42,509 nucleotides of DNA from a bacterium. Lineage in GTDB: Bacteria; Patescibacteriota; Saccharimonadia; Saccharimonadales; OMJO01. A program made the translations under genes and the position numbers. Where the stretch lies: the NCBI GenBank assembly GCA_900299395.1, contig OMJO01000015.1, positions 1 to 42,509 of the forward strand. The letters are read 5' to 3'. The notes beneath the pieces are model-generated. The model saw nothing but the letters and a program-made list of their open reading frames with translations. It was not told the DNA's origin and did no database searches. Shown piece by piece: positions 2,441 through 38,029 of the stretch. Position 1 is the stretch's first letter, and each line of letters starts with the position of its first letter.

Positions 2441-3171
2441 TTGCTGAAGAATTCTTCGAGGGTCGAGATGTTCTGTTTGTGCATTTCATTGGACAGCTCA
2501 GTGCAGATATAGCGGATATGCCATGGCTCGGCACGGTACCCAGTGATGCTTTCTTTGCCAGGGGTGTACCGCACGATAAAACCGTATTTGTAGGCATTGG
2601 CTGCCACCCACTTACCTTCTGGCAGGGTTCCAAAACAGTCCGAGACTTCGCATTTGCGGGCACCATCTTCCACATCCATGGCTAGGCCGGTTTGGTGCTC
2701 GCTGTAACCTGGTTTAGCGCTCTGGGTATCAGCTTTTGCTTGGCCATATTGTTTTACTTCATTGTTGTATACGGTCACTTGGGTTTGATACTAACGATAA
2801 CCACTGGCAAGCATGAGGTTTATATTTTCCTTTTTGGCTGCTGCAACTAGAGCTTCAAGGCCGCCAGCGGCTTCTTTGCGTAGTTTGCGTTCATCTGCAC
2901 CTGCACTTGGGCGGACTGGCACATTTGGTACGACTAAATCGGTAGGTGCATAACTTGCGCCAGCGGCGCGCTGTTTGTTGACGATCCACCAGATACTTCC
3001 TGGTTTCGTGGTTGAGTACTTTGTTTTATCGAACGTAACTTGCGAGGTCTGTTGCTGGGGTTTTTCGCCCTGCGCCACAGGTTTTATCTGTGTGTCGGAA
3101 TTGCGACCAACAAAAAATGCTGAAACCAAGATAATAAACACGATGCCAATCACAAACAGGTATTTTTTCAC
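2437..3171 (-). pseudogene. D-alanyl-D-alanine carboxypeptidase (VanY/M15B-like), interrupted by in-frame TAG at 2791-2793
   Basis: ORF pair in the same frame: MKKYLFVIGI..NLMLASGYR*YQTQVTVYNNEVKQYGQ..GYSEHQTGLAMDV..AEPWHIRY. M15B motifs SGYRSY, HxxGxAxD and EPWH are present across the stop. Confidence 0.85.
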
Positions 3172-3201
3172 CTCCTCAGTATAGCTGATATACTAGCGGC
3201 A

Positions 3202-3771
3202 ATGATTGATAAGAATGCTATCCCAACAAAACTCTTGTGGGTAGACCTCGAGATGACCGGCTTGGATGCGCAGCATGACGTTATCCTTGAGATTGCTGCG
3301 GAAATAACCGATTTTAACTTCAAAACATTGGCTAGCTATGAGGCACGAATACGCCAAAAGCGTGAAGTAGTTTTAGAACGTATGCAAAAAAATGTATGGT
3401 GGCGAGAGTATCCAGCAAACCGCGACGATTTTTTGAATAACTTGGATAAAGCCAAACCGCAAAGTGAGGTAGAGCAAGAACTCGTCGAACTTATGGGTAA
3501 ACATTTTGGTGATGAGCCGGCCGTTTTAGCAGGGAATTCTATACATAATGATCGTCTGTTTATTAAGCGGTGGATGCCCGCCCTTGACCTCAAGTTGCAC
3601 TACCGTATGCTCGATGTGACTTCGTGGAAAATGATCATGCAGGCCAAGTATGGCCAGAACTTCGAGAAAAAGGAAGTACACCGAGCATTTGATGATATTC
3701 AGGCGAGTATTGCTGAACTGCAGCATTATCTAGAATATTTCACGAGCCATGATGGATCACAAGACAGTTGA
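3202..3771 (+). CDS. orn: Oligoribonuclease (DEDD exonuclease)
   Basis: LLWVDLEMTGLD..ILEIAAEITD..LAGNSIHNDRLFIKRWMP..HRAFDDIQASI. Confidence 0.93.
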   Translation: MIDKNAIPTKLLWVDLEMTGLDAQHDVILEIAAEITDFNFKTLASYEARIRQKREVVLERMQKNVWWREYPANRDDFLNNLDKAKPQSEVEQELVELMGKHFGDEPAVLAGNSIHNDRLFIKRWMPALDLKLHYRMLDVTSWKMIMQAKYGQNFEKKEVHRAFDDIQASIAELQHYLEYFTSHDGSQDS

Positions 3772-4096
3772 AGAATACGTCCTGAGCATGCCAAACGCCG
3801 TGCTTGAATATCCGTTCGGCGAGGATGTTGCAGTCTACAAAGTAGACGGTAAGATGTTTGCGCTCATACCTGAAAAGTCAGACCCCGTGCGGATAAGCCT
3901 TAAGTGCGATCCATTGCTTTCAAAGGTGTTAAGAGAGAAATATGAGACAGTTATGGAAGGCTATCATCTGAACAAAAAGCATTGGAACACAATTGTACTC
4001 AGTGGCCAATTACCATGGGAGGATATCCAAGGTCTTATTCGGCATAGCTATCAGCTTGTTACTGGTAACGGGGGCGACGTACCAGCTATTGAGTAG
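3752..4096 (+). CDS. MmcQ/YjbR family DNA-binding protein
   Basis: MDHKTVEEYVLSMPNAVLEYPFGEDVAVYKVDGKMFALI...; overlaps the orn 3' end. Confidence 0.8.
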   Translation: MDHKTVEEYVLSMPNAVLEYPFGEDVAVYKVDGKMFALIPEKSDPVRISLKCDPLLSKVLREKYETVMEGYHLNKKHWNTIVLSGQLPWEDIQGLIRHSYQLVTGNGGDVPAIE

Positions 4097-4703
4097 TGGC
4101 GCTTGGCGCAAGTATGAGCCCAGCGTCGGTATAGGCATTATTAAGCGCGGTGCGGATTGATTTTGCTTTGGCGTTTGTGAAGGCGGTTTTTACGGCAGCC
4201 CGGTAGGCGTTGAGCTCTGTAGTTAACTCTTCGGTAAAAGGACTATCAAAGTTGTTATCTTTCTCTGCGGCGGTCAGTTTGGTATCGGTTGCACTGTTTT
4301 TGCCACTGGCTAAGTCTTTTTTATCAAGGGTGATGTTATTTTTTTTGAGTGCATCAAGCAGTGCTTTATTGTCGGCGGTAACACTGTATCCCGTAGTGAG
4401 TGCAAGACTACGTGTCTTCTGGTCTACTCCTTTAGTTGCGCCAATGTTCGCTACCCGAATAAGTTCGGATTGCTTGCGCGCGACACTAGTGAGCTCCTCG
4501 CGACTTTCTGCGCCACTTCTACCAAGGATAGTAAATAGTATGACGCCAAGTAGTAGCAGAACAACCACACCGGCAACCACAAAGATAATGCGCTGGGTTG
4601 TCGAGTTGCCACTGGGGACCATCTGTTTCTTGGGTTTTTTGGGATCTTCAAACAAGAATGCGTAGGGGTTTTGGCCGTTGGATTGGTTGGCATCATTACT
4701 CAC
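4086..4703 (-). CDS. Hypothetical single-TM protein with extracytoplasmic domain
   Basis: VSNDANQSNGQNPYAFLFEDPKKPKKQ...IIFVVAGVVVLLLLGVILFTILGRSG...; GTG start at 4703 inferred. Confidence 0.6.
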   Translation of the reverse strand: MSNDANQSNGQNPYAFLFEDPKKPKKQMVPSGNSTTQRIIFVVAGVVVLLLLGVILFTILGRSGAESREELTSVARKQSELIRVANIGATKGVDQKTRSLALTTGYSVTADNKALLDALKKNNITLDKKDLASGKNSATDTKLTAAEKDNNFDSPFTEELTTELNAYRAAVKTAFTNAKAKSIRTALNNAYTDAGLILAPSATTQ

Positions 4704-4874
4704 TCGTCTATTTAAACATAGGCAGCATCCAAAAGCACCAGAAGGGTATTCCATTATTGGTAAAAACATGGTATCGTATGTCGTCGACACTTTTCGGAGT
4801 TTGTCGCAATTCCGCGCAGCCTAGCTGTGCGTTGTTCTTTCTCGGTTCCGTCCAACCAGCAAGGGGTACATGCA

Positions 4875-5580
4875 GTGCACATCTTTGGTATTCGTATTCG
4901 GATCAGTCCGTCGTGGTTTGTGATCGGAGCGTTCTTCGCTCTCGACATGGCCAGCTGGCTGTCGTTGAAGCACGTGCCCGATGGCACGGCTTGGCACTGC
5001 GGAGCGTTCTACGCGGTCATGTTCGGTGGCAGCGTGCTCGCTCACGAGCTGGGGCACTCACGGGTCTTCCAGCACTACGGGGGGCACATCGAGCAGATCC
5101 AGCTCTGGGCTCTTGGTGGCATTGCCAGCTTGACAGGTGAGCCGGAGAAACCTCACCAAGAGTTCTGGGTGGCCATCGCCGGCCCGGCTGTGAGCATCAT
5201 GTTGGCGATCCTCTTCGGAGGTCTGACGTGGTTGTTCAGTTGGCTCGACGCCCCGTACTACCTGTGGTTCATCGCTCAGAGGTTGCTCATTCTCAACCTC
5301 GTGCTGGGCCTGTTCAACATGGTGCCGCTGTTCCCGCTCGATGGGGGGTCGCGTCTTGCGTTCGCTGCTCTGGTGGCGCATGAACGACATGGAACGTGCC
5401 ACGCGTTCGTCAGCAGCGCTGACCATCGGGACTGGTTTCGTCGTCAAGTGGACGTGCCTTGGCATGTTCATCTGGACGTTCCAGTTCCAGTGGCTGTGGT
5501 ACACATTCATGGCGATCTTCGTCAGCGGCATGGCCAAGCAGTACGTGGCGTGGATACGGACGCAGAAAGCCCAGGGATAG
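4875..5580 (+). pseudogene. M50 family site-2-type metalloprotease, GC-rich, apparent frameshift at G6 run 5343-5348
   Basis: VHIFGIRIRISPSWF..LAHELGHS (HExxH)..NMVPLFPLDGG, then the frame continues in ORF 5341-5580 as GGRVLRSLLWWRMNDMERATRSSA... Removing one G restores LDGGRVLRSLLWW. Confidence 0.8.
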
Positions 5581-5596
5581 GGCTGTGGCAAGCAGG

Positions 5597-5624
5597 GAGG
5601 GCTCGGCTTCACCGCTGAGCCCTC
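5597..5624 (+). terminator. GC-rich hairpin following the M50 gene (no T-tract)
   Basis: GAGGGCTC (5597-5604) / GAGCCCTC (5617-5624). Confidence 0.4.
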
Positions 5625-5662
5625 TCGCTCGCCCCTCTATCCCTAATTCATCTAAGATTTTG

Positions 5663-5686
5663 GAACCGCATAGGCGGTTCTTTTTT
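5663..5686 (+). terminator. Intrinsic terminator
   Basis: GAACCGC-ATAG-GCGGTTC followed by TTTTTT. Confidence 0.85.
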
Positions 5687-5730
5687 GTGCTTGTGCTTGA
5701 GAAGTGTCGATTAGCGTACAATGAGAGCAC

Positions 5731-7470
5731 ATGGATGCGGTAGAGGATATCAAGGGGCGCTTAAACATTGAGGACGTTATCAGCGAATACGTTCAGCTCA
5801 AACGTGCGGGTCGCAACTTCAAGGGCCTGAGCCCCTTTAACAGCGAAAAGACCGCAAGCTTTATGGTGAGCCCTGAAAAGCAAATCTGGCACGACTTCAG
5901 TAGCGGCAAGGGTGGAAACATGTTTAGCTTCATCATGGAAGTGGAGGGGCTGGATTTCAAAGGCACGCTGGAACTACTTGCCCGTAAAGCGGGAATAGAC
6001 CTCAGCCAGTATCGCACCGGACAAAGTGGTAATAGTCAGCTCAAGGAGCGTCTCTATGCGGCACATGAGCTCGCTACCAAGTTTTATCAGGCACACTTTT
6101 CTAAGAACCAGACAGCACTCGAGTACATTTTTAAAAAGCGTCAGTTTAGTAAGGATATTGCGCTCGCGTTCTGCATTGGTTACGCGCCAGGTAGTGGCCA
6201 GGCTCTTCTGACGTTTATGAAAAAGCAGGGTTATACCGTGAATGAGCTACAACAAGCCGGTTTAGCAACTCGCCGTTCACAAAGCGGCGACATGTTCCGC
6301 GATCGGATTATGATTCCACTCATGGATCCGCAAGGCAGGGTAATCGGTTTTACTGCGCGATTACTCGCCGAAAACCCGAACGCCCCAAAGTATCTCAATA
6401 CGCCTCAGACGCTGATTTATGACAAAGGTCGTCATGTATTTGGCCTGCACCTCGCCAAAGAGACGATACGAAAAGAAAAGTATAGCGTGGTGGTCGAGGG
6501 TAATCTGGACGTTATTGCCAGTCATCAGGCGGGAGTTAAGCACGTTGTCGCCACAGCGGGTACTGCCATGACAGAGATGCATCTCAAGGCACTTGGGCGG
6601 TTTGCGCCAGATGTTCGGTTAGCATTTGACCAGGACAGTGCGGGCATCGCTGCCACTGAGCGAGCCATACCGCTGGCGGCAAAATCAGGTGTCGTTCTGA
6701 GCATCATCGATATACCGGAAGGCAAAGACCCGGACGAACTTATAAAGAAAGACCCGACAGCATGGACGAAGGCAATTACCGAGCATCAGGATGCACAAGA
6801 CTGGCTCATACGCCAGTATGAAAAACGGGCAGATCTCAGCACCTATGCAGGCCGTGATACGTTCAAGCAGGCTGTGCTGGCATCTGTAAAACGGCTCGAG
6901 AGTGCCGGTGAGCAGGGACTCTATGCCAAAAAAGTTGCTCAAATATTGGGGTATAGTGAGGAAGCCATTCATGATGAACTAAAACTTATCAAAGAGGGGC
7001 GAACCACGTATAAGCAGTCCAAAGTTCGTGAGCAAAAAATTGATAAAACACACCTTGAGGGCAAAAAGGCTCAAGATCATTTGTTGGCCATATGTCTGCT
7101 ACAACCACCACTGCGGTATCATCTCGAACCACTTTCCACCGACATGTTGGTTGATGATGAGGCTCGGATGTTACTACGCTTTTTGCAGGACAACCCAGAG
7201 TTCAAGGGAGATTCTAAAGAGGCCAGCGCTTTGCATGAGATGGCAGATTATGTTAAAATTTTAGGTCTACAGTACGAGGAACTCTATCAGGATCTTGGGT
7301 TATTGGAACTTCGTAACGAAGCCACCCGGTTGCAGATTCGGTTGATAGACCACTATGTGAAAACGCAAAAGAAAAAACTGTCCGAGGCGCTTTTGACTGC
7401 TAATGAGACCAAAACGACCGAGCTACTTGAGCAAGTAAAGACCTTAGACGAACTACTAAAGAATCGCTAA
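5731..7470 (+). CDS. dnaG: DNA primase, divergent N-terminal zinc-binding domain
   Basis: [58 protein letters not shown]..; [29 protein letters not shown]. Confidence 0.95.
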
Positions 7471-7484
7471 ATAAGGAGGCATTT

Positions 7485-8612
7485 ATGGCAGATGACGACA
7501 GCGTTGTTGAGAATGCGGTGGATCCGGCATTGGTTCAAGCCAAACAGGATCTTATAGAAAAAGCAAAAAAAGATGGCAAAATCGACCAGCGGGATATTTT
7601 TGCGGTTATTGCCGATACCCCAGAAAATATCGACGTTCTGGATCAGCTCTACACAGAGCTGGCGGACGCTAATGTAGTAATTGGTGGGGTAACTGAGCCC
7701 AATCCAGAATCTTTTACCGACGAATGGGCTGAAGAAGAAGCTGAAGAAGAAGCGACTGATCAACCGGTGTACCTTGATGATGTATCAGATGACTCAGTGC
7801 GACTGTACTTGCGAGAAATAGGAAAGATTCCGCTGTTGACTGCAGAAGAAGAGCTGGCACTTGCTAAGCGAGTGGTGGCTGGTGAAAAGGATGCCAAGGA
7901 CAAAATGGCAGAAGCAAACATGCGCTTGGTGGTGAGTATCGCCAAACGGTATGTGGGCCGTGGTTTGGACCTGCTTGATCTTATACAAGAAGGAAACACC
8001 GGATTGCTGCGAGCGGTGGAGAAGTTTGACCCAGACAAGGGATTCAAATTTAGCACGTATGCTACGTGGTGGATTCGACAGGCTATTACACGTGCTATCG
8101 CCGATCAAGCTCGAACCATTCGTATTCCGGTGCACATGGTAGAGACTATCAACAAACTCCTCCGTACTCAGCGTCGCTTGACCCAGGAACTCAACCGAGA
8201 GCCCACCAACGAAGAGATTGCTAAGGCTATGGAAATCGAAGTGGAAAAAGTCGAACACATCATGAAGATAAAACAGGACATATCAAGTCTTGATGCCAGT
8301 GTTCGTGATGATGAGGAAGACTCTGTTTTGGCTGACTTCATCGAAGACGAAGACACGATTAGCCCTGAAGAATCTGCGACCGGCCAGCTTCTTAAAGAGC
8401 ATGTCAAAGACATGTTGGGCGCTCTAACCGAACGAGAACAAAAAATACTCAAGCTACGCTTCGGTCTCGAGGATGGCAAGAGTCATACGCTCGAAGAAGT
8501 AGGGCAAGAATTCAGCGTGACACGTGAGCGTATTCGCCAGATTGAGGCAAAGGCACTCGCCAAACTGCGCAAGCACAAGGACGCTAAGAAACTCCACGAT
8601 TACATCAAGTAG
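7485..8612 (+). CDS. rpoD: RNA polymerase primary sigma factor
   Basis: [71 protein letters not shown]; region 4 [25 protein letters not shown]. Confidence 0.97.
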
Positions 8613-8621
8613 GAAGACATT

Positions 8622-9059
8622 ATGGCTGCAACAGTCGATGCGGAATTGGCGCAGTGGGAACGGATGGCAGCCCAGGAACATCCTGAGGTACTCCCTTTGT
8701 GCGTTGAAACGTTAGAAATAGCCACGCAACAATTGACCGAACGGGCTGACAATATTCAGGAGATACATGATGAACAGCGCTCACGTTTGCAAAAAGCAGG
8801 AGCGATTATCTTGGCTTCTGAAGCTGTAGTCTTGGCGCAGTCTGAGCTACTTGAGAGAGCTATCGGTGTCCAAGTTCCGGAAAAAATAGTGCTTGGTGTT
8901 GGGCTCCTCGCTGCAGGGGCAGCATTATTCAAGGAAGGTCTTCGCTTTGCACAGTACAGAATGGGGCTACAAAGAACACAAGAACGTGCTGATCAGGTTG
9001 GCTTATTGTACGAGCAAGCAGCACATCGAGCGCGAAGCATGGGTCTGCTTGGAGATTGA
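8622..9059 (+). CDS. Hypothetical protein
   Basis: 145-aa ORF with an upstream GGAAG SD; hydrophobic stretch IVLGVGLLAAGAALF. Confidence 0.6.
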   Translation: MAATVDAELAQWERMAAQEHPEVLPLCVETLEIATQQLTERADNIQEIHDEQRSRLQKAGAIILASEAVVLAQSELLERAIGVQVPEKIVLGVGLLAAGAALFKEGLRFAQYRMGLQRTQERADQVGLLYEQAAHRARSMGLLGD

Positions 9060-9084
9060 CTTTTTAGCATAAGCGTGGTATTGT
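9056..9084 (+). promoter_or_regulatory. Sigma70-type promoter for the 9117 gene
   Basis: TTGACT-N17-TATTGT. Confidence 0.55.
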
Positions 9085-9116
9085 GATAGTACCTAGTATT
9101 AACACACAAACTCACG

Positions 9117-9572
9117 ATGAACGAATTACTTACACAACCAGGCGACCCAATGTTTGACGAAATCGAACAGGCACGATTGGCTGCTGCACAAGCGCAGGGA
9201 GCCACGGTTGAAGAGGGCATTGACCCAGCCTCTGGCAATGATGTCGTTCGAATTGAAGCTGGGCATAGTACTATTGAGGCAGCCAGTGATTTTCAGCCTG
9301 CCACTAACGGCCTGGAGATAGATACCAGCAGGGTAGAGGCCAGTACCGAAAAAGATACGCCAAACGGACACGTCAACTACAAGGCACACGTTGTAACGCA
9401 TCGGTATCCAGACGGTGATAGCTTTTCAAGTGGGCAGGCGGAGATTTATCGAACATTACCTAACGGCAAGGAAGTGATTCGTCGGAGTAATAACCCAGAA
9501 CGGGCACGGCAACTGACTAGCGCCATCGCTAGTCGTATGATTAGTGAAGCTCGTTCGGACCGAATTCGCTAG
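9117..9572 (+). CDS. Hypothetical protein
   Basis: 151-aa intact ORF. Confidence 0.55.
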   Translation: MNELLTQPGDPMFDEIEQARLAAAQAQGATVEEGIDPASGNDVVRIEAGHSTIEAASDFQPATNGLEIDTSRVEASTEKDTPNGHVNYKAHVVTHRYPDGDSFSSGQAEIYRTLPNGKEVIRRSNNPERARQLTSAIASRMISEARSDRIR

Positions 9573-9573
9573 A

Positions 9574-10261: not shown

Positions 10262-10733
10262 GTGACAGAGGTAGTCACGGGCCCAGAAATACAGGGCAAG
10301 TTTGGAGATGAAATTGGGGCGCCAGGCAACACATGCCGAGCTGGCAGCAGAAGTTGAGATGCCAGAAGATAAACTGACAGAATTTTTTCGTTATATGTCG
10401 GACCCGATGTCTTTGAATGAACGCCTTGGTGAAGACAGTGATACCGAACGTGGGGATTTGATTGGCGATATTACCGCAGCGGATCCAGAGCTTGAAGCAA
10501 TACGTGCGGGGATACCCGAAGTTGTAGAGAAAATGCTGGCTATCTTACCAGAGCGTGAGCGGATGATATTAATCTTGCGTCATGGTCTAGATCGTGGTGA
10601 ACTCCGTACACTCGATGAAGTTGGTGAGTACTTTAACCTGACTCGAGAACGCATTCGGCAGATAGAAGCTCGGGCTATGTCTATACTACGCCACCCTTCC
10701 GCCCAGGTTGGCGCCCGGGAGATGCTTGAGTAG
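10262..10733 (+). pseudogene. Sigma-70 family-like protein with regions 3-4 only; apparent frame disruption at G4 10316-10319 (or TTG start at 10302)
   Basis: SD TAGGAG before GTG 10262 gives MTEVVTGPEIQGKFGDEIG-. The main frame gives [69 protein letters not shown]. No region 2 upstream. Confidence 0.65.
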
Positions 10734-10762: not shown

Positions 10763-10768
10763 TATAAT
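10763..10768 (+). promoter_or_regulatory. -10 element TATAAT 7 nt before polA ATG
   Basis: TATAAT-tgaacac-ATG. Confidence 0.55.
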
Positions 10769-13439: not shown

Positions 13440-14081
13440 TCAAACAATATCCAACATTTTTCGGAAATCTGAAATAATGTGTGTTGGATTGTGTTTCCTC
13501 AGCTCTTCTATTGAGTAGAAATTCGAGTGCTCCGGTGGGAAAAAGAGTATTGAATCGACGCCTGCATTTTGGGCGGCTCCTAGGTCTTTGTCGGAATCCC
13601 CAACCATCACAACGGTTGCATTGTCACCACCTAGTAGCCCGAGGGCTTTATCGATGGGTTCACTGTGAGGTTTGTGGTTGGCCACGTCGTCACCAGTAAC
13701 GATCGCGTCAAAAAGTTGTGACATGCCATGTCTATCTAAGGCAGATAGCAAATGTTCGCGCAGCGATGTGGTTACTAGTGCAAGTTTTTTGTTCCGAGAC
13801 TTCAGTTCTTGGAGTACATCTAACGCGTCAGGGTATAAATATGCCTCAGGGAGCTTCGCCTTGGCAATTTTATCCGCTTCTTCCCATATAGCATCTGTCT
13901 CTGCTTCTAAACCCCACTTCTTGATGTGGGCGGGGAATTGCCCAAAACTGGCAGCGACTTCTTCATCTGTGAGCTTTACACCGCGTTTTTCAAGTGGAGC
14001 ACGACACGCTTCAAGCCATACTTGTAATGTTTGAATCAAATTGCCATCCCAATCAAGCAATATGTATTGGTATCTCTTCAT
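13440..14081 (-). CDS. HAD-family hydrolase (phosphoglycolate-phosphatase-like)
   Basis: YILLDWDGNLIQTLQ..LVTTSL..VTGDDVANHKPHSEPI..VMVGDSDKDLGAAQNAG. Confidence 0.88.
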   Translation of the reverse strand: MKRYQYILLDWDGNLIQTLQVWLEACRAPLEKRGVKLTDEEVAASFGQFPAHIKKWGLEAETDAIWEEADKIAKAKLPEAYLYPDALDVLQELKSRNKKLALVTTSLREHLLSALDRHGMSQLFDAIVTGDDVANHKPHSEPIDKALGLLGGDNATVVMVGDSDKDLGAAQNAGVDSILFFPPEHSNFYSIEELRKHNPTHIISDFRKMLDIV

Positions 14082-14121
14082 ACAACTGTGATTGTATCAC
14101 TCGGATGCTACAATTGTTTCT

Positions 14122-14388
14122 ATGGATAAGCAGTATAGAGAACTGGCTCGGCAGACGGTGGCATTGGCAGACGGCGCAAAGGCGCCAGAAAAGCATATCG
14201 TACAGGCGTTGAGCAACCAGATAAAAGCTACTGGCGACCTTGACAACCAGCTGGAAGAGTTGAACATCAGCATAAAGAGTCTCAATAAAGTCACCTCTAG
14301 ACTTATGACACGGCAGATATGGCTGATTGTGACGCAAACAATCATTGCTGTTGCCATTGGCTGGGCTGCCATCAAAATATCTGGCTAA
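14122..14388 (+). CDS. Hypothetical small membrane-anchored protein
   Basis: MDKQYRELARQTVALADGAK... with C-terminal TM; -10 TACAAT at 14109-14114. Confidence 0.6.
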   Translation: MDKQYRELARQTVALADGAKAPEKHIVQALSNQIKATGDLDNQLEELNISIKSLNKVTSRLMTRQIWLIVTQTIIAVAIGWAAIKISG

Positions 14389-16701: not shown

Positions 16702-16748
16702 TAGCTATAGTATATGGCAGTGACCATGCAATACACAGGAGCTTATAG

Positions 16749-18040: not shown

Positions 18041-18103
18041 AGACACATCAACAGTGGTCAGGTACTTGTTTTAGGCCATAAATTGTGCCATAATATAAGT
18101 GTT

Positions 18104-18695: not shown

Positions 18696-19259
18696 GTGAT
18701 AAAAGCCGTTATTTTTGATTACTTTGGCGTGATTAGCTCTGATGATTATTGGAAGTTTGTGCGCCATAATCGCGATCGTGCTTCAAAATTTCGTGACTAT
18801 GCCAGTGCTGTTAATAATGGCGAGATGCACTGGTCTGATTTTATAGAGAAGGTAGCCCAAGCGACCGGCACTGATGTTCAACGAGTCAATGAACTGTATG
18901 AGTCAGAACAGATTGATCCTCGGGTAGTGCATCTTATAACCGAATTGCATACTCAATACAAAACAGGGCTCATCACTAACGCCAATCACGAATTTATAGA
19001 CGAAATACTGCAAACAAATAATCTTAATAACATATTTGATACGGTTGTTGTGTCATCAAGGCTAGGGTACTCAAAACCAGATCCACGTATTTTCTCTGAG
19101 GCGTTAGAACGACTTGGAGTGTCGGCCGCGGAAACTGTATATTTTGATGATCTTTCGATGCACGTTGATGCAGCAAAAGCTCTCGGTATACAGGCGTTTG
19201 TGTACGAAAATTACGAGCAAGCCAAGAAGCAAATCGATAAAATATTATCTCAGTCTTGA
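18696..19259 (+). CDS. HAD-superfamily hydrolase
   Basis: IKAVIFDYFGVIS..GLITNANHEF..VVSSRLGYSKPDPRIF..YFDDLSMHVDAAKALG. Confidence 0.88.
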   Translation: MIKAVIFDYFGVISSDDYWKFVRHNRDRASKFRDYASAVNNGEMHWSDFIEKVAQATGTDVQRVNELYESEQIDPRVVHLITELHTQYKTGLITNANHEFIDEILQTNNLNNIFDTVVVSSRLGYSKPDPRIFSEALERLGVSAAETVYFDDLSMHVDAAKALGIQAFVYENYEQAKKQIDKILSQS

Positions 19260-19274
19260 TATATTGCTAATGCT

Positions 19275-19514
19275 TTAATGCCCAATGCGTATGCTCAATC
19301 GTTTATCTGTTTGGGCATGCTGTTGAAGCTGATGTAGTTCCATTCTGAGGCTACCCGCCAGAGCGGCACTAGGGACAGTAATAATTATGTCTTGGGGTCG
19401 GATGGTAACTGTGGGAGTGGTTTCGTATTTTTCTTGGATGTACTGTTTTATTAGTATTACTGCAGGCGGTTCTGCAAAGCGTTTATTCGGCAAGATATTC
19501 CCCAACTGATCCAT
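19275..19514 (-). CDS. Small protein, possibly DUF721/DciA-like
   Basis: MDQLGNILPNKRFAEPPAVILIKQYIQEKY..; start at 19514 supported by TACAAT 6 nt upstream. Family assignment tentative. Confidence 0.5.
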   Translation of the reverse strand: MDQLGNILPNKRFAEPPAVILIKQYIQEKYETTPTVTIRPQDIIITVPSAALAGSLRMELHQLQQHAQTDKRLSIRIGH

Positions 19515-19570
19515 GTGTGTATTGTACAGCACGTAAATATTACATGCATTGTCTGGGTTACAATGATAGT

Positions 19571-20446
19571 ATGCCTGAATTACCAGAGGTCGAAACAGTG
19601 CGTCGAGGTTTGTATGCTCGCATTATTGGTAAGCAGATCTCGCGTGTCTGGCATGACACAGAGAAAAACTTTCCGAATAGTGAAGCGGATGTACGACAGT
19701 TTGTGGTAGGTGCATCAGTGCTTGATGTGCGTCGTCGTGCCAAAGTTCTGATGATAGATCTCGATAGCAATTATACGCTCGTCGTGCACTTGAAAATGAC
19801 AGGGCAAATAGTATACCGGAGTGAGAAGGATCAGTTTGGAGCAGGGCATCCGAACGATAGTTTGGTAGGCGAACTGCCGGATAGGTCAACGAGGGTGGCT
19901 ATACATTTTTTTGATAAAAGCGTTCTGTATTTCAATGATCAACGAAAGTTTGGTTGGATGCTTCTTTTGCCATCCGTACAATTGACTGACATTGATTTCT
20001 TTAAAGCAGTTGGGCCTGAGCCTTTGGCAGCTGACTTCACGAAAACGAATTTCAGACAACGACTCCAGCGTCGCCTAAATAGCAACATAAAAGCGACCTT
20101 GCTGGACCAGGGCGTTATCGCAGGCATAGGCAATATTTATGCCGATGAGAGCTTGTGGGGTGCCAAGATTCACCCCAATACGCTCGTAAAAAACATTGGT
20201 GACAAGCAGCTGAACACATTATTTACCGAACTGCAGTACGTGCTTACTCTGGCAATTGAAAAGGGCGGTTCGACAGACAAGAATTATGTGAATGCAGAAG
20301 GTAAGCGGGGAAGTTATCTGAGCTTTGCTCGGGTCTTTCGTCGTGAAGGTAAAACGTGCCCTCGTTGTGGTACTACCATAGAAAAGATACGGGTTGCGGG
20401 TCGCGGGACGCATATCTGTCCTCAGTGTCAAAAGGTGGTGGAATGA
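19571..20446 (+). CDS. mutM: Formamidopyrimidine-DNA glycosylase
   Basis: MPELPEVETVRRGL..; GVIAGIGNIYADE; C-terminal zinc finger CPRCGTTIEKIRVAGRGTHICPQCQ. Confidence 0.97.
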   Translation: MPELPEVETVRRGLYARIIGKQISRVWHDTEKNFPNSEADVRQFVVGASVLDVRRRAKVLMIDLDSNYTLVVHLKMTGQIVYRSEKDQFGAGHPNDSLVGELPDRSTRVAIHFFDKSVLYFNDQRKFGWMLLLPSVQLTDIDFFKAVGPEPLAADFTKTNFRQRLQRRLNSNIKATLLDQGVIAGIGNIYADESLWGAKIHPNTLVKNIGDKQLNTLFTELQYVLTLAIEKGGSTDKNYVNAEGKRGSYLSFARVFRREGKTCPRCGTTIEKIRVAGRGTHICPQCQKVVE

Positions 20447-23571: not shown

Positions 23572-23597
23572 TGGGTGAATACGGTATAGTGTAGCCC

Positions 23598-24296: not shown

Positions 24297-24317
24297 CAGG
24301 AGTAACTGTGGTACTAT
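24289..24317 (+). promoter_or_regulatory. Promoter of rpsO, TTGATT-N17-TACTAT
   Basis: 17-bp spacing, ATG 9 nt after -10. Confidence 0.55.
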
Positions 24318-29764: not shown

Positions 29765-29793
29765 TTGAAAAAATAGGAATATTGTAGTATACT
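29765..29793 (+). promoter_or_regulatory. Promoter TTGAAA-N17-TATACT
   Basis: Consensus spacing; ATG 29803 is 9 nt downstream. Confidence 0.65.
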
Positions 29794-29802: not shown

Positions 29803-30579
29803 ATGCGTCTCTGGCATCACGCTATGAGTGAAAAGATAAAAATCACCAACAATCTAGACTGGGATGTTACTCGGACCCACGAAGCCGTAAGTGCATTCCC
29901 AGAAGCCGCGCTTGAGCAGTTGGCTGTTGTGGGCCTTGACCGCATAGTAAAAGATGCGGATCTACGGGCTATTGCCACTCATGCCAAGTCACGCATGGGC
30001 GAAGTTGGCTCAATGGGGGAGATGTTTACATTACGAGATACCGATGACATCGTCATGAAAGTGCACAAGCACCCATTTTCATATGTGGGTGTCAATGCGG
30101 CTCTACATGAGGGGTTAGCTGCACATCGACAGTTCAGTACACCTAATTATCTCGGCACCATAATGTCGCGCAACGGAACACAAGCGACGCTCATGACTCG
30201 CGAGCCAGGCATCGAGTTGTCGCGAGTAGATAATAAAGACCGCAGCAAGTACGAACGTGGTGTACACGCTCTATTACAATCAACCGCCAGCAAGGCGCTG
30301 GCGAGTGTGGGCGTTGACCCGAACTTGGCACATTGGGACTGGAATCATAACAATCTTTTGGTGCCAGCCGCCACCCGTGACTGGCGCGATGTACACAATG
30401 TTCCAATTACCATATTGGATCAACAGGCAACACAGATCGGTACTATTGATGACTGGGAAAAGCAGGCTCGGCCAGACTTTAGCGGGGTAGCACGTGACCC
30501 TCGTGATTTGGCCACAGAGCAAGCTGCTGACGACGCCTGGGCTCGGCTCAATCAGTCTCAGCAGCTGGTCAAAAACTAG
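29803..30579 (+). CDS. Hypothetical protein with kinase-like (PKL fold) motif HWDWNHNNLLV
   Basis: IVMKVHK, LMTREPGIEL and HWDWNHNNLLV followed by ITILDQQ resemble Lys / hinge / HxDxxxxN / D motifs of the protein-kinase-like fold; divergent. Confidence 0.5.
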   Translation: MRLWHHAMSEKIKITNNLDWDVTRTHEAVSAFPEAALEQLAVVGLDRIVKDADLRAIATHAKSRMGEVGSMGEMFTLRDTDDIVMKVHKHPFSYVGVNAALHEGLAAHRQFSTPNYLGTIMSRNGTQATLMTREPGIELSRVDNKDRSKYERGVHALLQSTASKALASVGVDPNLAHWDWNHNNLLVPAATRDWRDVHNVPITILDQQATQIGTIDDWEKQARPDFSGVARDPRDLATEQAADDAWARLNQSQQLVKN

Positions 30580-30583: not shown

Positions 30584-30612
30584 TTGACAAACGTTGTATT
30601 TTTTGCTATAAT
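30584..30612 (+). promoter_or_regulatory. Perfect consensus sigma70 promoter TTGACA-N17-TATAAT
   Basis: Direct reading; ATG 30620 lies 7 nt after the -10. Confidence 0.85.
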
Positions 30613-30619
30613 GTAATGT

Positions 30620-30913
30620 ATGAATGAGCTACAACCACCGACAGGAGAAGGCCCAACGCGTTTAGGCGAAATACTAGAAGATGTGGACGCAATTGTAGGC
30701 CAAGAGCCAGATGAGACACGGCGGGCCGACACTGAAGTGGCTCGCCTTGGGGCTGAGGTGTCTGAACTGCACGATGCCCGGCGGGGCATGATCGAAGCTA
30801 ATGAAGCTGGTCACGCCGAACACGACGTAGAGGGCATTACTGAAGCAACACTGGAGGCGCGCGCAGAACTAGATGAGGCCGTAAAACGACATCCTGCCAA
30901 CGGCCCCAAGTGA
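30620..30913 (+). CDS. Small acidic, probably coiled-coil hypothetical protein
   Basis: 97-aa ORF rich in E/A/R behind a consensus promoter. Confidence 0.65.
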   Translation: MNELQPPTGEGPTRLGEILEDVDAIVGQEPDETRRADTEVARLGAEVSELHDARRGMIEANEAGHAEHDVEGITEATLEARAELDEAVKRHPANGPK

Positions 30914-30930
30914 TATAATAGGTAACACCT

Positions 30931-33147
30931 ATGGCAAAGAAGAAAAAACAAACACGATCCCGCAAAAAGACCGAAGAGGTCACTGAGCGTTCGGCTTTTT
31001 GGCCGCTGGCTGGTGCAGTTCTGATGATGGTCTTGGCGGTATTTTTACTACTTGGTGGGTTCGGTACCGGTGGCGCACTGCCAAAAAGTCTATTCCATGG
31101 TGCCTATTGGACGCTCGGGTGGGCGGCATATCTGACGCCAGTCGCGCTGATTTTTTTTGGTATTCACAAGTTTACCAGTGAAGACCGCAATATACCGCTG
31201 GATAAATTTATAAGCATGCTTGCTTTGCTGGTAATGAGCAGCAGTTGGCTGCATGTTGCGTTTGTAACGGGCAATAATGGGAGCTTTGCTGGAGGCCATG
31301 GTGGTGAACTAGGCAAGCTTATAGGTAATCTTGTGCTGGGCGCCCTAGATAAAATCCCAGCTGCGCTGCTGTTCTTTGTTTTGATGCTGCTTGTATTTTT
31401 CCTGACATTTGGCATTTCACCCAAAGTTATCTTGCGGCTGTTCTCACTCTTTAGTCGCCAGACAGACGAGGATACCGATCTCGCCGATCTTAAAGCCAAG
31501 GCTGTTGATAATGGTTTCAAATTGAATGAAGGTGTACCGGTAGAGCGGCATTCCGATCGAGACAAAGCGCGTCTCAGTACGTTCCGCAACTCTGCGCAAA
31601 AGATTACGCCAACCGAGAACCATGAAGCACTTACCATTGCCAGTGACCCAGACTGGAAGTTGCCGTCAATTGATTTGCTCAATCAAAAACAGGACAAAGC
31701 TGATGCGGGCAATGTGGAAGCTAACGCCGAAACTATTAAAGAAACGTTCAACCACTTTAATATCGCTGTCGAGATGGAGGGCGCCAACATTGGTCCTCGT
31801 GTGACGCAGTATACCCTCAAACCTCCAGCCGGCGTTAAGCTGGCTAAAATCGCAGCGCTTGAAAACAATCTGGCCTTAGACTTGGCAGCCCAGGCCATTC
31901 GTATCGAGGCACCGATTCCAGGTAAGAAAGCAGTAGGTATCGAGGTGCCGAATGTCCGCGGTGCGACTGTCCGCGTCAGTTCGATTATGCAATCTCGCGA
32001 ATGGCAAGAGGCCAAGAGTCCGCTGACGTTCTCGATAGGTAAAGATATCGCTGGTAAGCCCATCGTGGCAGATCTGGCAGAGATGCCACACTTGTTGGTG
32101 GCCGGCCAGACAAAATCTGGTAAGAGTGTCATGATCAACACTATTCTGACGAGTTTGCTCTATCGCAATGCGCCTTCAGACCTCAAACTCATCTTGGTTG
32201 ATCCTAAGCTCGTTGAGCTGAAGCCGTATGATGATATCCCGCACTTGCTGACACCAGTTATCACCGATCCGGAAAAAACCATCAGTGCACTGAAGTGGAC
32301 CGTGGCCGAGATGGAACGACGTTACCGTGCGCTGAGTGAAGTGCATCGTCGTAACATCGAGGAATACAATGCCCTGAAGAAAGAAGAGGGGATGCCGTAT
32401 ATCGTGATTGTTATTGATGAATTGGCAGACCTGATGATGATGGCCGCCCGTGATATAGAGGCACTAATTGTTCGCATTGCGCAGAAAGCTCGAGCCGTGG
32501 GTATTCACCTCATTCTGGCCACCCAAAGCCCTCGTGTTACCGTTATAACTGGGCTTATTAAGGCCAACGTGCCCGCACGCATTGCCTTTACGGTGTCACA
32601 AGAGGTGGAATCGCGCATTATTCTAGACCAGAGTGGTGCTGAAAAATTGTTGGGGCAAGGTGATATGCTGTTGCTGACATCCGACATGCCAAAGCCAAAA
32701 CGCGTCCAAGGTGCCCTAATTACCAGTGAAGAAACACTGAAGGTGAACGATTTCTTGCGTATGCAACGTCCACCACAATATGACGATGAAGTTATCAGTC
32801 AGCCGGTACAACTGAATGGCCGCGGTGGTGTTGTTGCCGAGATCGAGAGTACTGATGAGCCGATATTTAAGGATGCAGTTGGTGTGGTTATACAGGCCGG
32901 CAAAGCCAGCACAAGCCTGTTGCAGCGTCGTTTGCGCATTGGCTACGGCAAAGCTGCTCGTTTAATCGAAAGCATGGAAGAGCAGGGCATCGTGGGGCCG
33001 GCAGATGGTTCACGCCCGCGAGAAGTACTAGTTAGCTCAGCCGATGAAGTATTCAATCGCGATACTGCCAGCCCTGCCGAATCTGAAGATGTCTATGACG
33101 ACATGCCGGACGATGGTGACGGCAAAGACGAGTACCTCACTAAGTAG
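30931..33147 (+). CDS. ftsK: DNA translocase FtsK/SpoIIIE
   Basis: N-terminal TM segments; LLVAGQTKSGKSVMINTILTSLL; LADLMMMAARDIEALIVRIAQKARAVGIHLILATQSP; gamma domain LLQRRLRIGYGKAARLIESMEEQGIVGPADGSRPREVL. Confidence 0.97.
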   Translation: MAKKKKQTRSRKKTEEVTERSAFWPLAGAVLMMVLAVFLLLGGFGTGGALPKSLFHGAYWTLGWAAYLTPVALIFFGIHKFTSEDRNIPLDKFISMLALLVMSSSWLHVAFVTGNNGSFAGGHGGELGKLIGNLVLGALDKIPAALLFFVLMLLVFFLTFGISPKVILRLFSLFSRQTDEDTDLADLKAKAVDNGFKLNEGVPVERHSDRDKARLSTFRNSAQKITPTENHEALTIASDPDWKLPSIDLLNQKQDKADAGNVEANAETIKETFNHFNIAVEMEGANIGPRVTQYTLKPPAGVKLAKIAALENNLALDLAAQAIRIEAPIPGKKAVGIEVPNVRGATVRVSSIMQSREWQEAKSPLTFSIGKDIAGKPIVADLAEMPHLLVAGQTKSGKSVMINTILTSLLYRNAPSDLKLILVDPKLVELKPYDDIPHLLTPVITDPEKTISALKWTVAEMERRYRALSEVHRRNIEEYNALKKEEGMPYIVIVIDELADLMMMAARDIEALIVRIAQKARAVGIHLILATQSPRVTVITGLIKANVPARIAFTVSQEVESRIILDQSGAEKLLGQGDMLLLTSDMPKPKRVQGALITSEETLKVNDFLRMQRPPQYDDEVISQPVQLNGRGGVVAEIESTDEPIFKDAVGVVIQAGKASTSLLQRRLRIGYGKAARLIESMEEQGIVGPADGSRPREVLVSSADEVFNRDTASPAESEDVYDDMPDDGDGKDEYLTK

Positions 33148-33176
33148 TTGACTAACAGGGGTAGATAGCGTATACT
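33148..33176 (+). promoter_or_regulatory. Promoter of the rpsF operon TTGACT-N17-TATACT
   Basis: Direct reading. Confidence 0.75.
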
Positions 33177-33241
33177 TACCCCATTATTAACCTTAGCTCA
33201 TGGCCAGTAGGGCGCGTGGGCGTTAACCAAAGGAGGTTCTT

Positions 33242-33631
33242 TTGAACAACCAATACGAGATTGCTGTCTTGTATCACCCAGATCTAGAAGTAGATCTGAC
33301 CAAGGCAGAAGATCGAGTGACAAAGATCGTCACTGGTGCTGGCGGCAAAATCACCGCTATCGACAATTGGGGTAAGCGCAAACTCATGTACCCAATCAAG
33401 GGTCAGGAGCACGCTGTGTATGTTTTCTACACGGTAGAATTGCCGTCAGAAGGTGTCAAGAAGGTAGAAGCTACCCTCAACATCACCGACGAAGTAATAC
33501 GCTACCTTATCACTCGTCCAGACCTCAAGGCTCAGGCTAAGGCCGAGGCTTTGAAGGCAGAGAAGGCCAAGAAGGCTGCCGAGCGTGGTGATAACGCTCA
33601 AGACGACGAAGACGACGATTCAGAAGAGTAG
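33242..33631 (+). CDS. rpsF: 30S ribosomal protein S6 (bS6), TTG start
   Basis: NNQYEIAVLYHPDLEVDL..TAIDNWGKRKLMYPIKGQEHAVYVFY; AAGGAGG SD before TTG. Confidence 0.95.
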   Translation: MNNQYEIAVLYHPDLEVDLTKAEDRVTKIVTGAGGKITAIDNWGKRKLMYPIKGQEHAVYVFYTVELPSEGVKKVEATLNITDEVIRYLITRPDLKAQAKAEALKAEKAKKAAERGDNAQDDEDDDSEE

Positions 33632-33711
33632 ACTTGACGATAAGGCGCATCGGGCGCTACCGTAATAGTACATTAACTAACAAGACATAGATCTTATAAG
33701 GAGGGCTAGCA

Positions 33712-34176
33712 ATGGCTAGATCATTTAACCAAGTAACATTAATGGGTAATCTTACCCGTGATCCAGAGCTTCGGCAGACGCCGAATGGGCAAAACGTCTG
33801 CAGCTTTAGCTTGGCACTAAACCGCAGCTTCAAAAGCAGCAGTGGCGAATGGCAAGAAGCTACCGACTACATCGACGTAGTAGCGTGGGGACCGCTAGGA
33901 GAGCGCGTAGCGCAGTATCTTACCAAGGGCCGCCCGGCACTGGTAAACGGCCGTTTACAATCCAGAAGTTGGGAACAGGATGGCCAAAAGCGCAGCAAAG
34001 TGGAAGTAATTGCCCAAGATGTCACCTTCCTTGGTGGCGCCGGTGGTAGCGGCGGTGGCTATAGCGACGAGAGCAGCAGCCCAGCCCCTAAGCCTAAAAA
34101 GGCAGCAAAGAAAGACGATGTTGTTATCGAAGATCTCGGCGATGAACCAATAAATCTCGACGACATACCATTTTAA
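33712..34176 (+). CDS. ssb: Single-stranded DNA-binding protein
   Basis: SFNQVTLMGNLTRDPELRQTPNGQNVCSFSLALNR..; acidic C-terminal tip DDIPF. Confidence 0.97.
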   Translation: MARSFNQVTLMGNLTRDPELRQTPNGQNVCSFSLALNRSFKSSSGEWQEATDYIDVVAWGPLGERVAQYLTKGRPALVNGRLQSRSWEQDGQKRSKVEVIAQDVTFLGGAGGSGGGYSDESSSPAPKPKKAAKKDDVVIEDLGDEPINLDDIPF

Positions 34177-34186
34177 GGAGTAAATT

Positions 34187-34390
34187 ATGGCAAAGATATT
34201 TAAACACCGCACTGACGTTGCATACTTTGACTACAAGGATTTTAAGACCTTGCAGCGCTATGTAAATCAGTACGGCCAAATCGAAACACGCAAGAAAACC
34301 GGACTCAAAGAGCACGAACAACGCCGTTTGGCGATTGCTATTAAGCGTGCCCGTCACCTTGCACTGTTACCATTCGTAGCAAATAACTAA
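34187..34390 (+). CDS. rpsR: 30S ribosomal protein S18 (bS18)
   Basis: [54 protein letters not shown]. Confidence 0.96.
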
Positions 34391-34398
34391 GGCTTACC

Positions 34399-34962
34399 AT
34401 GGCATTTGGCGTAACAGACCTAAAGAAGGGCCAGATTTTTCAACTCGACGGTGTACCGTACCGAGTAGTGAACTATGCTCAAAAAGTAATGGGCCGTGGC
34501 GGTTCCATCGTAAATGTAAAAATCAAGAGCCTCATTGATGGGCGCGTACTTGATAAGACCTTCAAAGGTAATGAGTCGATCGAGCCAGCCGATGTGACCA
34601 ATCGCAATGTTCAATACCTCTACAAAGATAGTGCTGCGTATTTTTTCATGGACGATGATAGCTATGAGCAGTTTGAAGTGCCGCTTGATGATGCTGAAGA
34701 GATCGAAGGCTACATCAAAGAGGGTGATGCTGTGCAAGCGCAGCTATTTGACGGGCGTGTGATTAACATTGTTCTACCAAAGAACGTGCCACTCAAGGTG
34801 ACCTATACCGAGAACGCCGTAAAGGGCGATACCAGCTCGGCAATTACCAAAGACGCCACACTCGAAACAGGATTGGTGATCAAAGTTCCAGCATTCATCA
34901 AGACGGGTGATCTAATAAGTGTCGATACGACTACTGGCGCTTATCGCGAGCGCGTAAAATAA
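34399..34962 (+). CDS. efp: Elongation factor P (Arg at tip position)
   Basis: MAFGVTDLKKGQIFQLDGVPYRVVNYAQKVMGRGGSIVNVKIKSL..; C-terminal GLVIKVPAFIKTGDLISVDTTTGAYRERVK. Confidence 0.95.
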   Translation: MAFGVTDLKKGQIFQLDGVPYRVVNYAQKVMGRGGSIVNVKIKSLIDGRVLDKTFKGNESIEPADVTNRNVQYLYKDSAAYFFMDDDSYEQFEVPLDDAEEIEGYIKEGDAVQAQLFDGRVINIVLPKNVPLKVTYTENAVKGDTSSAITKDATLETGLVIKVPAFIKTGDLISVDTTTGAYRERVK

Positions 34963-34967
34963 AAGAT

Positions 34968-35432
34968 ATGAACGAGTATATGCTCGCAGTTTTACTGGAG
35001 CAGAAAGAGCAAGGTGAATCATTTGGCCGTTGGCCACTGCACATTACACTTGTGCCGTGGTTTGATATACCAGGCAATCTCAGCGAGGCCGTAGGGGCGC
35101 TTATGGGTACCTTGCAGTCATCGCATGCGTTTTCTGTTACAACTGGATCGAAGACCTCCTTACACGGGCGAAAAGTGGCGCTTATCCGTGATTCAGCTGC
35201 ACTTCGGGCGCTTCATGTGAAGTTACTGGACTTTGTGGGAGAGTATGGGCGTAGCGCTGAACCATTACGTTACGTAGGCCAAGAATATACGCCACATATA
35301 ACAGAGAAGGTGAATGCTACGGTCCAGCCGGGTTTTGCCGTAGCTGTTAAGAAGATCTATCTCATAGAAGCGCCCAAGACCAACCCCAGTACGCGAATCA
35401 AGAGAGTCGCGTGTGTAGGAGAGTTGGCATGA
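34968..35432 (+). CDS. 2'-5' RNA ligase-like (2H phosphoesterase) protein
   Basis: HITLVPWF and HITEKV two-histidine motifs. Confidence 0.7.
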   Translation: MNEYMLAVLLEQKEQGESFGRWPLHITLVPWFDIPGNLSEAVGALMGTLQSSHAFSVTTGSKTSLHGRKVALIRDSAALRALHVKLLDFVGEYGRSAEPLRYVGQEYTPHITEKVNATVQPGFAVAVKKIYLIEAPKTNPSTRIKRVACVGELA

Positions 35433-36145
35433 GGCAGCGGCTCGATAAAACGCTGGTGAGTCTAGGGATGGCATCAACACGCAGCCAGGCAGAGAACTTT
35501 ATAAAACTAGGCACTGTTACTGTAAATGGTGAAGTATGTCGTAAACCGGGTGCAATGGTCACCGACAATGATGCTCTCAAAGTTACCGCAGAAGAACAGT
35601 ATGTTTCCCGCGCGGGGCTGAAACTAATGTCGGTTGCCGGAAAACTCAAGCTCAACTTTAAGGGCAAAATAATGCTTGATGTTGGCAGTAGCACAGGGGG
35701 CTTCACTGATTATGCCCTGCAGCATGGTGCTAAAAGGGTAGTGGCAGTAGATGTAGGGACCAATCAGCTGCATCCGACGTTACGTGGTCACGAGCGCATC
35801 GACCTTCGTGAACAGACAGACATCCGTGATGTGGAGCTGAATGCAATACCAGACATTGTGACTATTGATGTGTCATTTGTGAGTCTCCGGGATATACTCC
35901 CGAGTGTAGCGAAGTTAAGTGACGCAAACACGCAGATTGTCGCCATGGTTAAACCCCAGTTTGAGGCAGGCCAGAGTAGCATTAAACACAAAGGCGTTAT
36001 CAAGAACGATGCCATGCGACGACAGGTGTTAAAAGACTTCGAAACGTGGGTACAAAAATTGTTCATAATCGTTGCAAAGGCCGATTCTGAGGTAGCTGGC
36101 GCGAAAGGCAACGTAGAGCGTTTTTATCTACTCAAGAAACTTTAG
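35429..36145 (+). CDS. tlyA: TlyA-like rRNA methyltransferase (S4 + FtsJ domains)
   Basis: RLDKTLVSLGMASTRSQAENFIKLGTVTVNG; YVSRAGLKL; LDVGSSTGGFTDYALQHGAKRVVAVDVG. Confidence 0.93.
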   Translation: MRQRLDKTLVSLGMASTRSQAENFIKLGTVTVNGEVCRKPGAMVTDNDALKVTAEEQYVSRAGLKLMSVAGKLKLNFKGKIMLDVGSSTGGFTDYALQHGAKRVVAVDVGTNQLHPTLRGHERIDLREQTDIRDVELNAIPDIVTIDVSFVSLRDILPSVAKLSDANTQIVAMVKPQFEAGQSSIKHKGVIKNDAMRRQVLKDFETWVQKLFIIVAKADSEVAGAKGNVERFYLLKKL

Positions 36146-36189
36146 GTTAGTTCTCGCAACAGAGTAAACGCTTATGCTACACTGCCAGT

Positions 36190-36882
36190 ATGTATTATTA
36201 CAGCCGTGCAGAGGCGGGGCGAAAGCTTGCAGCAAAGTTGTTAGGGTATCAGACAAAAAACTGCGCCATCATTGCGCTTAGTCCTGGCGCAGTATTAGTT
36301 GGTGCACAGATTGCTATCAAGTTGCACTCTAACCTCATGATGCTGACGACAGAGAATATTGAAATTCCTGGCGAAAACTCACCATACGGGGCGATAAATG
36401 AAGCCAATATTTTAACGTATAACAATTCTTTCTCTACCGGTGAGATAGAAGAATTTAACATGGAGTACTTTAACCTCATTGAGCAGCAACGTTTACAGAA
36501 AGTACAGAAGCTACATAGGCTTATAGATGCTAATGGGCAGGTACGCCGCGAGCTGCTGAAAAATCATGTCGTCATTGTCGTTGCCGATGGGCTATCGAGT
36601 GGTCTTTCGCTTGATGTAGCAGGCGATTACCTCAAGCCAATCCGTGTGCAAAAGCTTATTGCGGTATGTCCGGTTGCCAGCCCGCAGGCCGTTGATCGTA
36701 TGCGCCTATTCTCAGATGAGGTGCATTGTTTGTCGGTTACCGAAAACTTCGTGGAAACGAACCATTATTACGAGGACAATACCATTCCAAGCAAGGAAGG
36801 GCTTTATAAGATAATCCGTAATATTTCTCTTAGTTGGGACAGGCCAGACTCGGCTAACGTGCGTACGGCAGCTATACGTTAA
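36190..36882 (+). CDS. Phosphoribosyltransferase-like protein with degenerate PRPP loop
   Basis: NHVVIVVADGLSSGLSLDVA at the PRPP-loop position; N-terminal AGRKLAAKLLGY. Confidence 0.65.
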   Translation: MYYYSRAEAGRKLAAKLLGYQTKNCAIIALSPGAVLVGAQIAIKLHSNLMMLTTENIEIPGENSPYGAINEANILTYNNSFSTGEIEEFNMEYFNLIEQQRLQKVQKLHRLIDANGQVRRELLKNHVVIVVADGLSSGLSLDVAGDYLKPIRVQKLIAVCPVASPQAVDRMRLFSDEVHCLSVTENFVETNHYYEDNTIPSKEGLYKIIRNISLSWDRPDSANVRTAAIR

Positions 36883-37951
36883 ATCGGAACTCTACGACAT
36901 CATTTGGTTGCATAATGTAGTCTTTGCCTTCGGTACGGACCTTGCCAGATGCTTTGGCTGCAGTTTCGCTGCCTGCGGCAATAAGATCCGTGTAGTCCAC
37001 AACTTGTGCCGCAATAAACCCGCGTTCAAAATCGGTATGGATAACGCCAGCCGCTTGCGGGGCAGTTGCCCCCTTGGGAATTGTCCAGGCACGTACTTCT
37101 TGTTCACCAGCGGTGAGATAGCTTTGCAAGCCGAGCACATCGTAGGCAGCATGGATGAGTTGGGATAGCCCAGATTCCGTTACGTCGTAACTCTCCAATA
37201 ATTCGGCACGGTCATTCTCATCGAGGCCTTGCAGTTCACTTTCTAATTTTGCACATACAAAAATAACCTGGGCTGGCGCTACAAGCTTAGACAACTCCTG
37301 CTGTCTCTCATCATTAGCTAGGGTGGCTTCGTCAACGTTGAAAAGGTAAATGATGGGTTTGGCAGTGAGTAAGTGCAGATCTTCTATATGTTCTCGATTC
37401 AAGGGTTGGGGCGCGTGAAAAAGGGGTGTACCAGCATCAAGTAGCACTTTTGCTTCTTGCAGCGAATCGACAATCGGCTTGAGTTTGGGATTGGCACGAG
37501 CCTCTTTCTCAATCTTTGGTAATCTATTGGTGACGGTCTGCAGGTCTGCCAAGACCAACTCGGTGTTTATAACGTCGATATCTTTGCGGGGGTCAATCTC
37601 ATTGTCGACATGCACAACATCGGCATCAGTGAACGCGCGAACCACCTGGACGATGGCATTACAGCTTCTAATATGGCTCAAAAACTGATTGCCCAAACCT
37701 TCACCCTTGCTGGCGCCGGCCACTAACCCGGCAATATCTACAAACGTAACAGTAGCTGGTACGACTTTTTTGGACTGATAGAGCTCAGCAAGCTTCTGTA
37801 GCCGTGTGTCCGGGATAGGCACAATGCCGGTGTTGGGCTCAATCGTTGCAAAAGGATAATTAGCCGCCAGAATATTGTTGTTCGTCAGGGCATTAAACAG
37901 TGTGGACTTGCCAACATTGGGCAGCCCGACGATCCCAATTGATAAACTCAT
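36872..37951 (-). CDS. ychF: Redox-regulated ATPase/GTP-binding protein YchF
   Basis: MSLSIGIVGLPNVGKSTLFNALTNN..VDIAGLVAGASKGEGLGNQFLSHIRSCNAIVQVVR..; TGS-like C-terminus. Confidence 0.97.
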   Translation of the reverse strand: MSLSIGIVGLPNVGKSTLFNALTNNNILAANYPFATIEPNTGIVPIPDTRLQKLAELYQSKKVVPATVTFVDIAGLVAGASKGEGLGNQFLSHIRSCNAIVQVVRAFTDADVVHVDNEIDPRKDIDVINTELVLADLQTVTNRLPKIEKEARANPKLKPIVDSLQEAKVLLDAGTPLFHAPQPLNREHIEDLHLLTAKPIIYLFNVDEATLANDERQQELSKLVAPAQVIFVCAKLESELQGLDENDRAELLESYDVTESGLSQLIHAAYDVLGLQSYLTAGEQEVRAWTIPKGATAPQAAGVIHTDFERGFIAAQVVDYTDLIAAGSETAAKASGKVRTEGKDYIMQPNDVVEFRFNV

Positions 37952-38029
37952 GCACAGAGTATACCATCTGTTGGTCGTCTTTTAATCCCTATGCTACCCT
38001 TAGGAAGAAATATTGAGAGGGGATAGACC

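Follow-up and report, generated by a model that had tools for sequence, protein, structure and literature searches.

Promoter-like -10 hexamers next to start codons suggest leaderless transcription beside Shine-Dalgarno initiation in a Saccharibacterium

How is a gene expressed when its promoter appears to end only a few nucleotides before the start codon? This question is raised by contig OMJO01000015.1, a stretch of 42,509 nucleotides (nt; hereafter the window) from a Saccharibacterium, in which the original prediction, made from the letters of the window, placed a hexamer resembling the sigma-70 -10 element just upstream of 17 genes and proposed widespread leaderless transcription, that is, mRNA that begins at or within a few nt of the start codon and carries no Shine-Dalgarno (SD) site. 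The window is one of the 38 contigs (C15) of a 705-kb genome that is 89% complete, and Saccharibacteria supply the closest relatives of its PolA (80 loci at 57-70% identity). We propose that the -10 elements found at these starts are best explained by leaderless transcription that operates beside SD initiation, a reading that the sequence supports with a probability of roughly 0.87.

Hexamers at start codons and the promoters they resemble

Genes were called in 329 of the 705 kb of this genome, sampled as stretches (327 genes), with a gene finder that scores codons and picks each start by coding score and start-codon type, upstream sequence never being used; gene names were checked with Pfam where stated. 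Gap here means the nt that separate hexamer and start codon, a strict -10 is a TANNNT that matches TATAAT at 5 or more of 6 positions, the looser criterion is TANNNT alone, and the chance level comes from shuffled upstream regions with dinucleotide composition kept. A strict -10 lies at gap 6-8 in 49 of the 327 genes against 5.4±2.2 in the shuffles (z 19.6), and the looser TANNNT in 72 against 23.9. Taken alone, TGNTANNNT occurs 24 times at gap 6-8 against 2.4, and its count rises slightly a second time at gap 23-25, the expected place of leadered promoters. With equal freedom of start choice granted at every spacing, gap 6-8 collects 38 genes, whereas the other spacings collect 8.4 on average and 16 at most. 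Because gaps vary, simple base frequencies per column at the starts give a blurred signal only. Within the window itself a strict -10 at gap 6-8 precedes 12 of 52 genes, where the shuffle rate of the 327-gene sample would predict about 0.9.

A lack of positional enrichment of TANNNT before starts had been set beforehand as the refuting outcome, and the test did not refute the proposal, since the motif peaks sharply at gap 6-8 in this genome and in Saccharibacteria more broadly, and shows no such peak in Escherichia coli: random stretches of other Saccharibacteria gave 14/83 against 2.6, 14/94 against 3.7 and 18/70 against 3.3, and 200 kb of E. coli K-12, the negative control, gave 0/170 genes with a strict -10 at this gap. 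Plasmid MP1 of Deinococcus radiodurans, a positive control whose phylum is known to have leaderless genes, gave 11 against 1.8 with TANNNT; under the strict consensus this control is weak (2 against 0.2), because G+C is high. One relative (G001), which has no genes under table 11 and probably uses another genetic code, was excluded. Chance is thus excluded as the source of the hexamers. Their excess amounts to about 43-48 genes, which is 13-15% of all genes and 16-19% of those that come first in a transcription unit, and leaderless transcription, if present as proposed, is accordingly "widespread" to the extent of about one gene in seven, a minority. The preference for first genes is mild, a strict -10 at gap 6-8 being found in 36 of 200 first-of-unit genes (18%, 3.9 in shuffles) and also in 13 of 118 genes whose upstream neighbour lies no more than 25 nt away (11%, 0.9 in shuffles).

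The surroundings of the hexamers carry further promoter features. When the 55 leaderless-type promoters of this genome are aligned on the hexamer, most often TATAAT, TATACT or TACAAT, G stands at -14 in 67% and T at -15 in 44%, which is the extended -10 pattern; TGn directly precedes the -10 in 19 of 49 genes, about 3 being expected, and G is present at -14 in 31 of the 49. The RpoD of the window retains the His/Glu pair of region 3.0, and in E. coli sigma-70 it is the pair in this same stretch that contacts TGn. Judged by these features, the hexamers look like working promoters.

Initiation with and without Shine-Dalgarno sites

The predicted want of SD sites holds well, since among the 55 leaderless-type genes, 53 of which start with ATG, a single one has an SD. 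In the same genome SD motifs at 5-10 nt occur 78 times in the 118 operon-internal genes (background 5.5) and 74 times in the 200 first genes (background 8.5), and the 3' end of the 16S rRNA, GGATTACCTCCTTTC, has its CCTCC anti-SD intact. SD initiation therefore runs in parallel, and the proposed coexistence of two initiation grammars in one genome is borne out. Three losses were considered as the cause of the SD-less genes: that of the anti-SD is ruled out by the intact CCTCC, that of IF3 is countered by its presence in 38 of 41 class genomes, and that of S1 by the presence of a homologue. The latter (G000:C12:33775-34791, minus strand) has an open frame of 357 aa and, like its counterparts in class relatives, matches approximately positions 12-346 of the 516-position rpsA model, so that a shorter S1 is found across the class.

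The arrangement recurs among orthologues. A TATAMT-like hexamer stands at gap 5-9 before polA in 67 of 81 Saccharibacteria (the window counted), in flanking upstream sequence that is widely divergent, and a -10 is found at the start of orn in 11 of 14 orthologues, open reading frame (ORF) 9574 in 10 of 11, folP in 4 of 4, mutM in 39 of 59, ORF 19514 in 33 of 54, holA in 24 of 41, the HAD gene at 18696 in 21 of 42 and dnaG in 10 of 36. It is not conserved for truB (2/9) or rpsO (1/5). The orthologues of rpoD are leaderless-type in 0/17 and SD-led in 13/17, and rpsF, ssb and rpsR have an SD in every one of the few orthologues seen. For ychF, 11 of 30 class members are leaderless-type, and in one subclade the -10 lies further upstream and AAAGG precedes the start; its tree requires at least 5 label changes, a number that hinges on the motif calls. 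Conservation orthologue by orthologue, together with the changes in ychF, therefore indicates a mode that is inherited gene by gene, yet turns over. One ychF locus (L203, among L200-L229) that falls within the leadered subclade has a leaderless look, as though by deletion of its leader. Beyond the class, 30 other Patescibacteria genomes, sampled at 40-80 kb each and hence small samples singly, range from no excess to 16% of genes, and sum to 135 against about 39.

We suggest that sigma-70 promoters of the extended -10 type are placed so that 6-8 nt separate the -10 from the start codon, a position from which RNA polymerase would begin on the A of ATG or no more than about 2 nt from it. The resulting mRNA would have neither leader nor SD site; by analogy with leaderless mRNA elsewhere, the ribosome would presumably bind its 5'-terminal AUG directly, with SD initiation in the same cell serving most operon-internal genes and many first genes. 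Several points weigh against this explanation. Both the transcription start position and the ribosomal route are inferred from sequence, and sequence cannot separate a start 1-3 nt upstream from a leader of zero. The sample of 329 of 705 kb and the home-made gene finder are weak points. An SD-preceded in-frame start lies further down in 5 of the 55 leaderless-type genes, as it does in 6 of 94 SD genes and 4 of the remaining 178. Finally, a -35 element at about 17 base pairs (bp) spacing is in slight excess in this genome (z 2.5), a weak signal, and a strong -35 box was sought in the pooled Saccharibacteria class and not found (z 0.6). In extended -10 sigma-70 promoters a -35 element is not obligatory.

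The alternative that survives best, although we think it improbable, accepts the promoters as real and has the mRNA begin 3-10 nt before the start, so that ribosomes would bind a tiny leader and not a 5'-terminal AUG. Gaps of 8-9, and the gap of 11 before ftsK, imply a few leader nt, and a subclade of polA genes (L047, L055, L057, L044 and others) keeps TATACT at gap ~12, often with TAGCT before the ATG, from which a short leader of ~5 nt may be predicted. Against this, transcription usually starts 6-7 nt after the -10, and a gap of 6-7 therefore puts the start on the A of ATG, so that the sharp peak at 6-8 nt places it on or beside that A. A smaller chance attaches to the hexamer being no promoter but a TA-rich translation signal, or a simple A+T bias before starts, of the kind discussed for Bacteroidetes or S1-binding sites. 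An A+T-rich upstream bias without SD does exist elsewhere (PMC5397173), but the motif here has the -10 consensus with G or TG two bases before it, it is commoner in first-of-unit than in close-behind genes (18% against 11%), and dinucleotide-preserving shuffles abolish the signal. Least credible of all is that start codons were mis-assigned, the true starts being SD-led ones further down and the hexamers serving ordinary leadered mRNAs, for although a few starts are doubtful (ORF 18104, ORF 29803), many orthologues start at the matching ATG with conserved residues soon after (polA, ychF), and a downstream SD-led start is available to just the 5 of 55 genes given above.

Genes of the window and divergent pairs

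All 17 hexamers of the original prediction lie at the coordinates and gaps given for them; as leaderless-type promoters 12 are strict at gap 5-9, two are weaker and three fail. Among the strict genes, seven are read from the plus strand: orn has TATACT at 3189-3194 (ATG 3202, gap 7), dnaG has TACAAT at 5717-5722 (ATG 5731, gap 8), polA has TATAAT at 10763-10768 (ATG 10776, gap 7), mutM has TACAAT at 19559-19564 (ATG 19571, gap 6), truB has TATAGT at 23585-23590 (ATG 23598, gap 7), ORF 30620 has TATAAT at 30607-30612 (gap 7) and ORF 14122 has TACAAT at 14109-14114 (gap 7). Those on the minus strand are a HAD hydrolase gene (TACAAT, 14091-14096; ATG 14081, gap 9), which has perhaps a leader of 2-3 nt, folP (TATACT, 16709-16714; ATG 16701, gap 7), ORF 19514 (TACAAT, 19521-19526; gap 6), ychF (TATACT, 37958-37963; ATG 37951, gap 6) and a vanY-like gene (TATACT, 3178-3183; GTG 3171, gap 6). 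The Pfam match of this last gene to VanY is weak and below cut-off, and its start is ambiguous because the GTG sits within GAGGAGGTG.

The two weaker candidates, both on the plus strand, have TANNNT only: rpsO with TACTAT at 24312-24317 (ATG 24327, gap 9), and ORF 36190 with TACACT at 36178-36183 (gap 6), where TGn is present. The three that fail are also on the plus strand. Before ftsK an extended -10, TGATATAAT, lies at 30911-30919 (ATG 30931), and its gap of 11 falls outside 5-9 and therefore points to a leader of ~4-5 nt, short rather than absent. The starts of the other two are uncertain: TATACT at 29788-29793 stands at gap 9 before ATG 29803, where the coding score favours a start at 29824, and CATAAT at 18089-18094, at gap 9 before ATG 18104, is not TANNNT. 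The gene for the primary sigma factor, rpoD (7485-8612, plus strand), had been listed as an SD-led first gene; it is SD-led, but stands 14 nt behind dnaG. A second sigma-related product is encoded at 10302-10733 (plus strand), 42 nt before polA, as a stand-alone protein in which Pfam finds sigma-70 regions 3 and 4 and no region 2; it is either a truncated sigma paralogue or a separate regulator.

Three pairs of these genes are divergent and carry leaderless-type -10 elements on both strands, namely vanY/orn (3171-3202, 30 nt apart), HAD/ORF 14122 (14081-14122, 40 nt apart) and ORF 19514/mutM (19514-19571, 56 nt apart). The leaderless layout gives space for two promoters in such intergenic gaps of 30-56 nt, and the paired promoters probably exclude each other, because a polymerase bound at one would cover part of its partner. 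A broader picture, on which we are evenly divided, would have leaderless initiation as an ancestral trait inherited gene by gene in Saccharibacteria and part of the Patescibacteria, with genes such as ychF switching form over evolution between leaderless and leadered, and with leaderless promoters allowing divergent genes to stand as close as 30-56 bp, each promoter excluding its partner.

Known leaderless systems and the place of Saccharibacteria

The closest likeness is to the TA-led genes of Zheng et al. 2011 (PMC3160421), in which TANNNT takes the same position, ~12 nt upstream when counted from the first T, or gap 6-8 as counted here, and likewise replaces the SD in genomes that also use SD. 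For TA-led genes an average of 19% is reported for Actinobacteria and of 39% for Deinococcus-Thermus; the figure here, obtained by a different method, is ~13-15%. The survey of 953 bacteria tabulates no candidate phylum by name (PMC3160421). The mycobacterial leaderless transcriptome (Cortes 2013, PMC3898074; Shell 2015, PMC4633059) has the same promoter at the start codon and the same coexistence with SD-led genes; there it is documented by mapped 5' ends and ribosome profiling, whereas the Saccharibacterium case is predicted from sequence. The leaderless class of GeneMarkS-2, in the portion quoted in PMC9581028, is the same kind of prediction, a promoter-like motif near starts, and comprises 21.6% of bacterial species, with up to 40% of transcripts. 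A full-text search of open-access papers found, among the hits read, no paper on leaderless genes in Saccharibacteria, Patescibacteria or the candidate phyla radiation. The kind is well known as TA-led; what appears to be new is its occurrence in Saccharibacteria and, in patches, in other Patescibacteria. On the protein YchF, PMC12641178 (2025) says that it promotes leaderless translation, in conflict with the abstract of the primary report, PMC8138138, where its loss stimulates it.

Patescibacteria make up a large, mostly uncultured share of bacterial diversity. Should core genes of replication and repair in these organisms (polA, dnaG, mutM, holA) be carried on leaderless mRNAs, gene finders that expect an SD will misplace their starts. 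Furthermore, if the proposal is true, the few Saccharibacteria in culture could be given expression constructs whose promoter sits at the start codon, and sensitivity to drugs that stop leadered initiation while sparing the leaderless kind would be a testable prediction.

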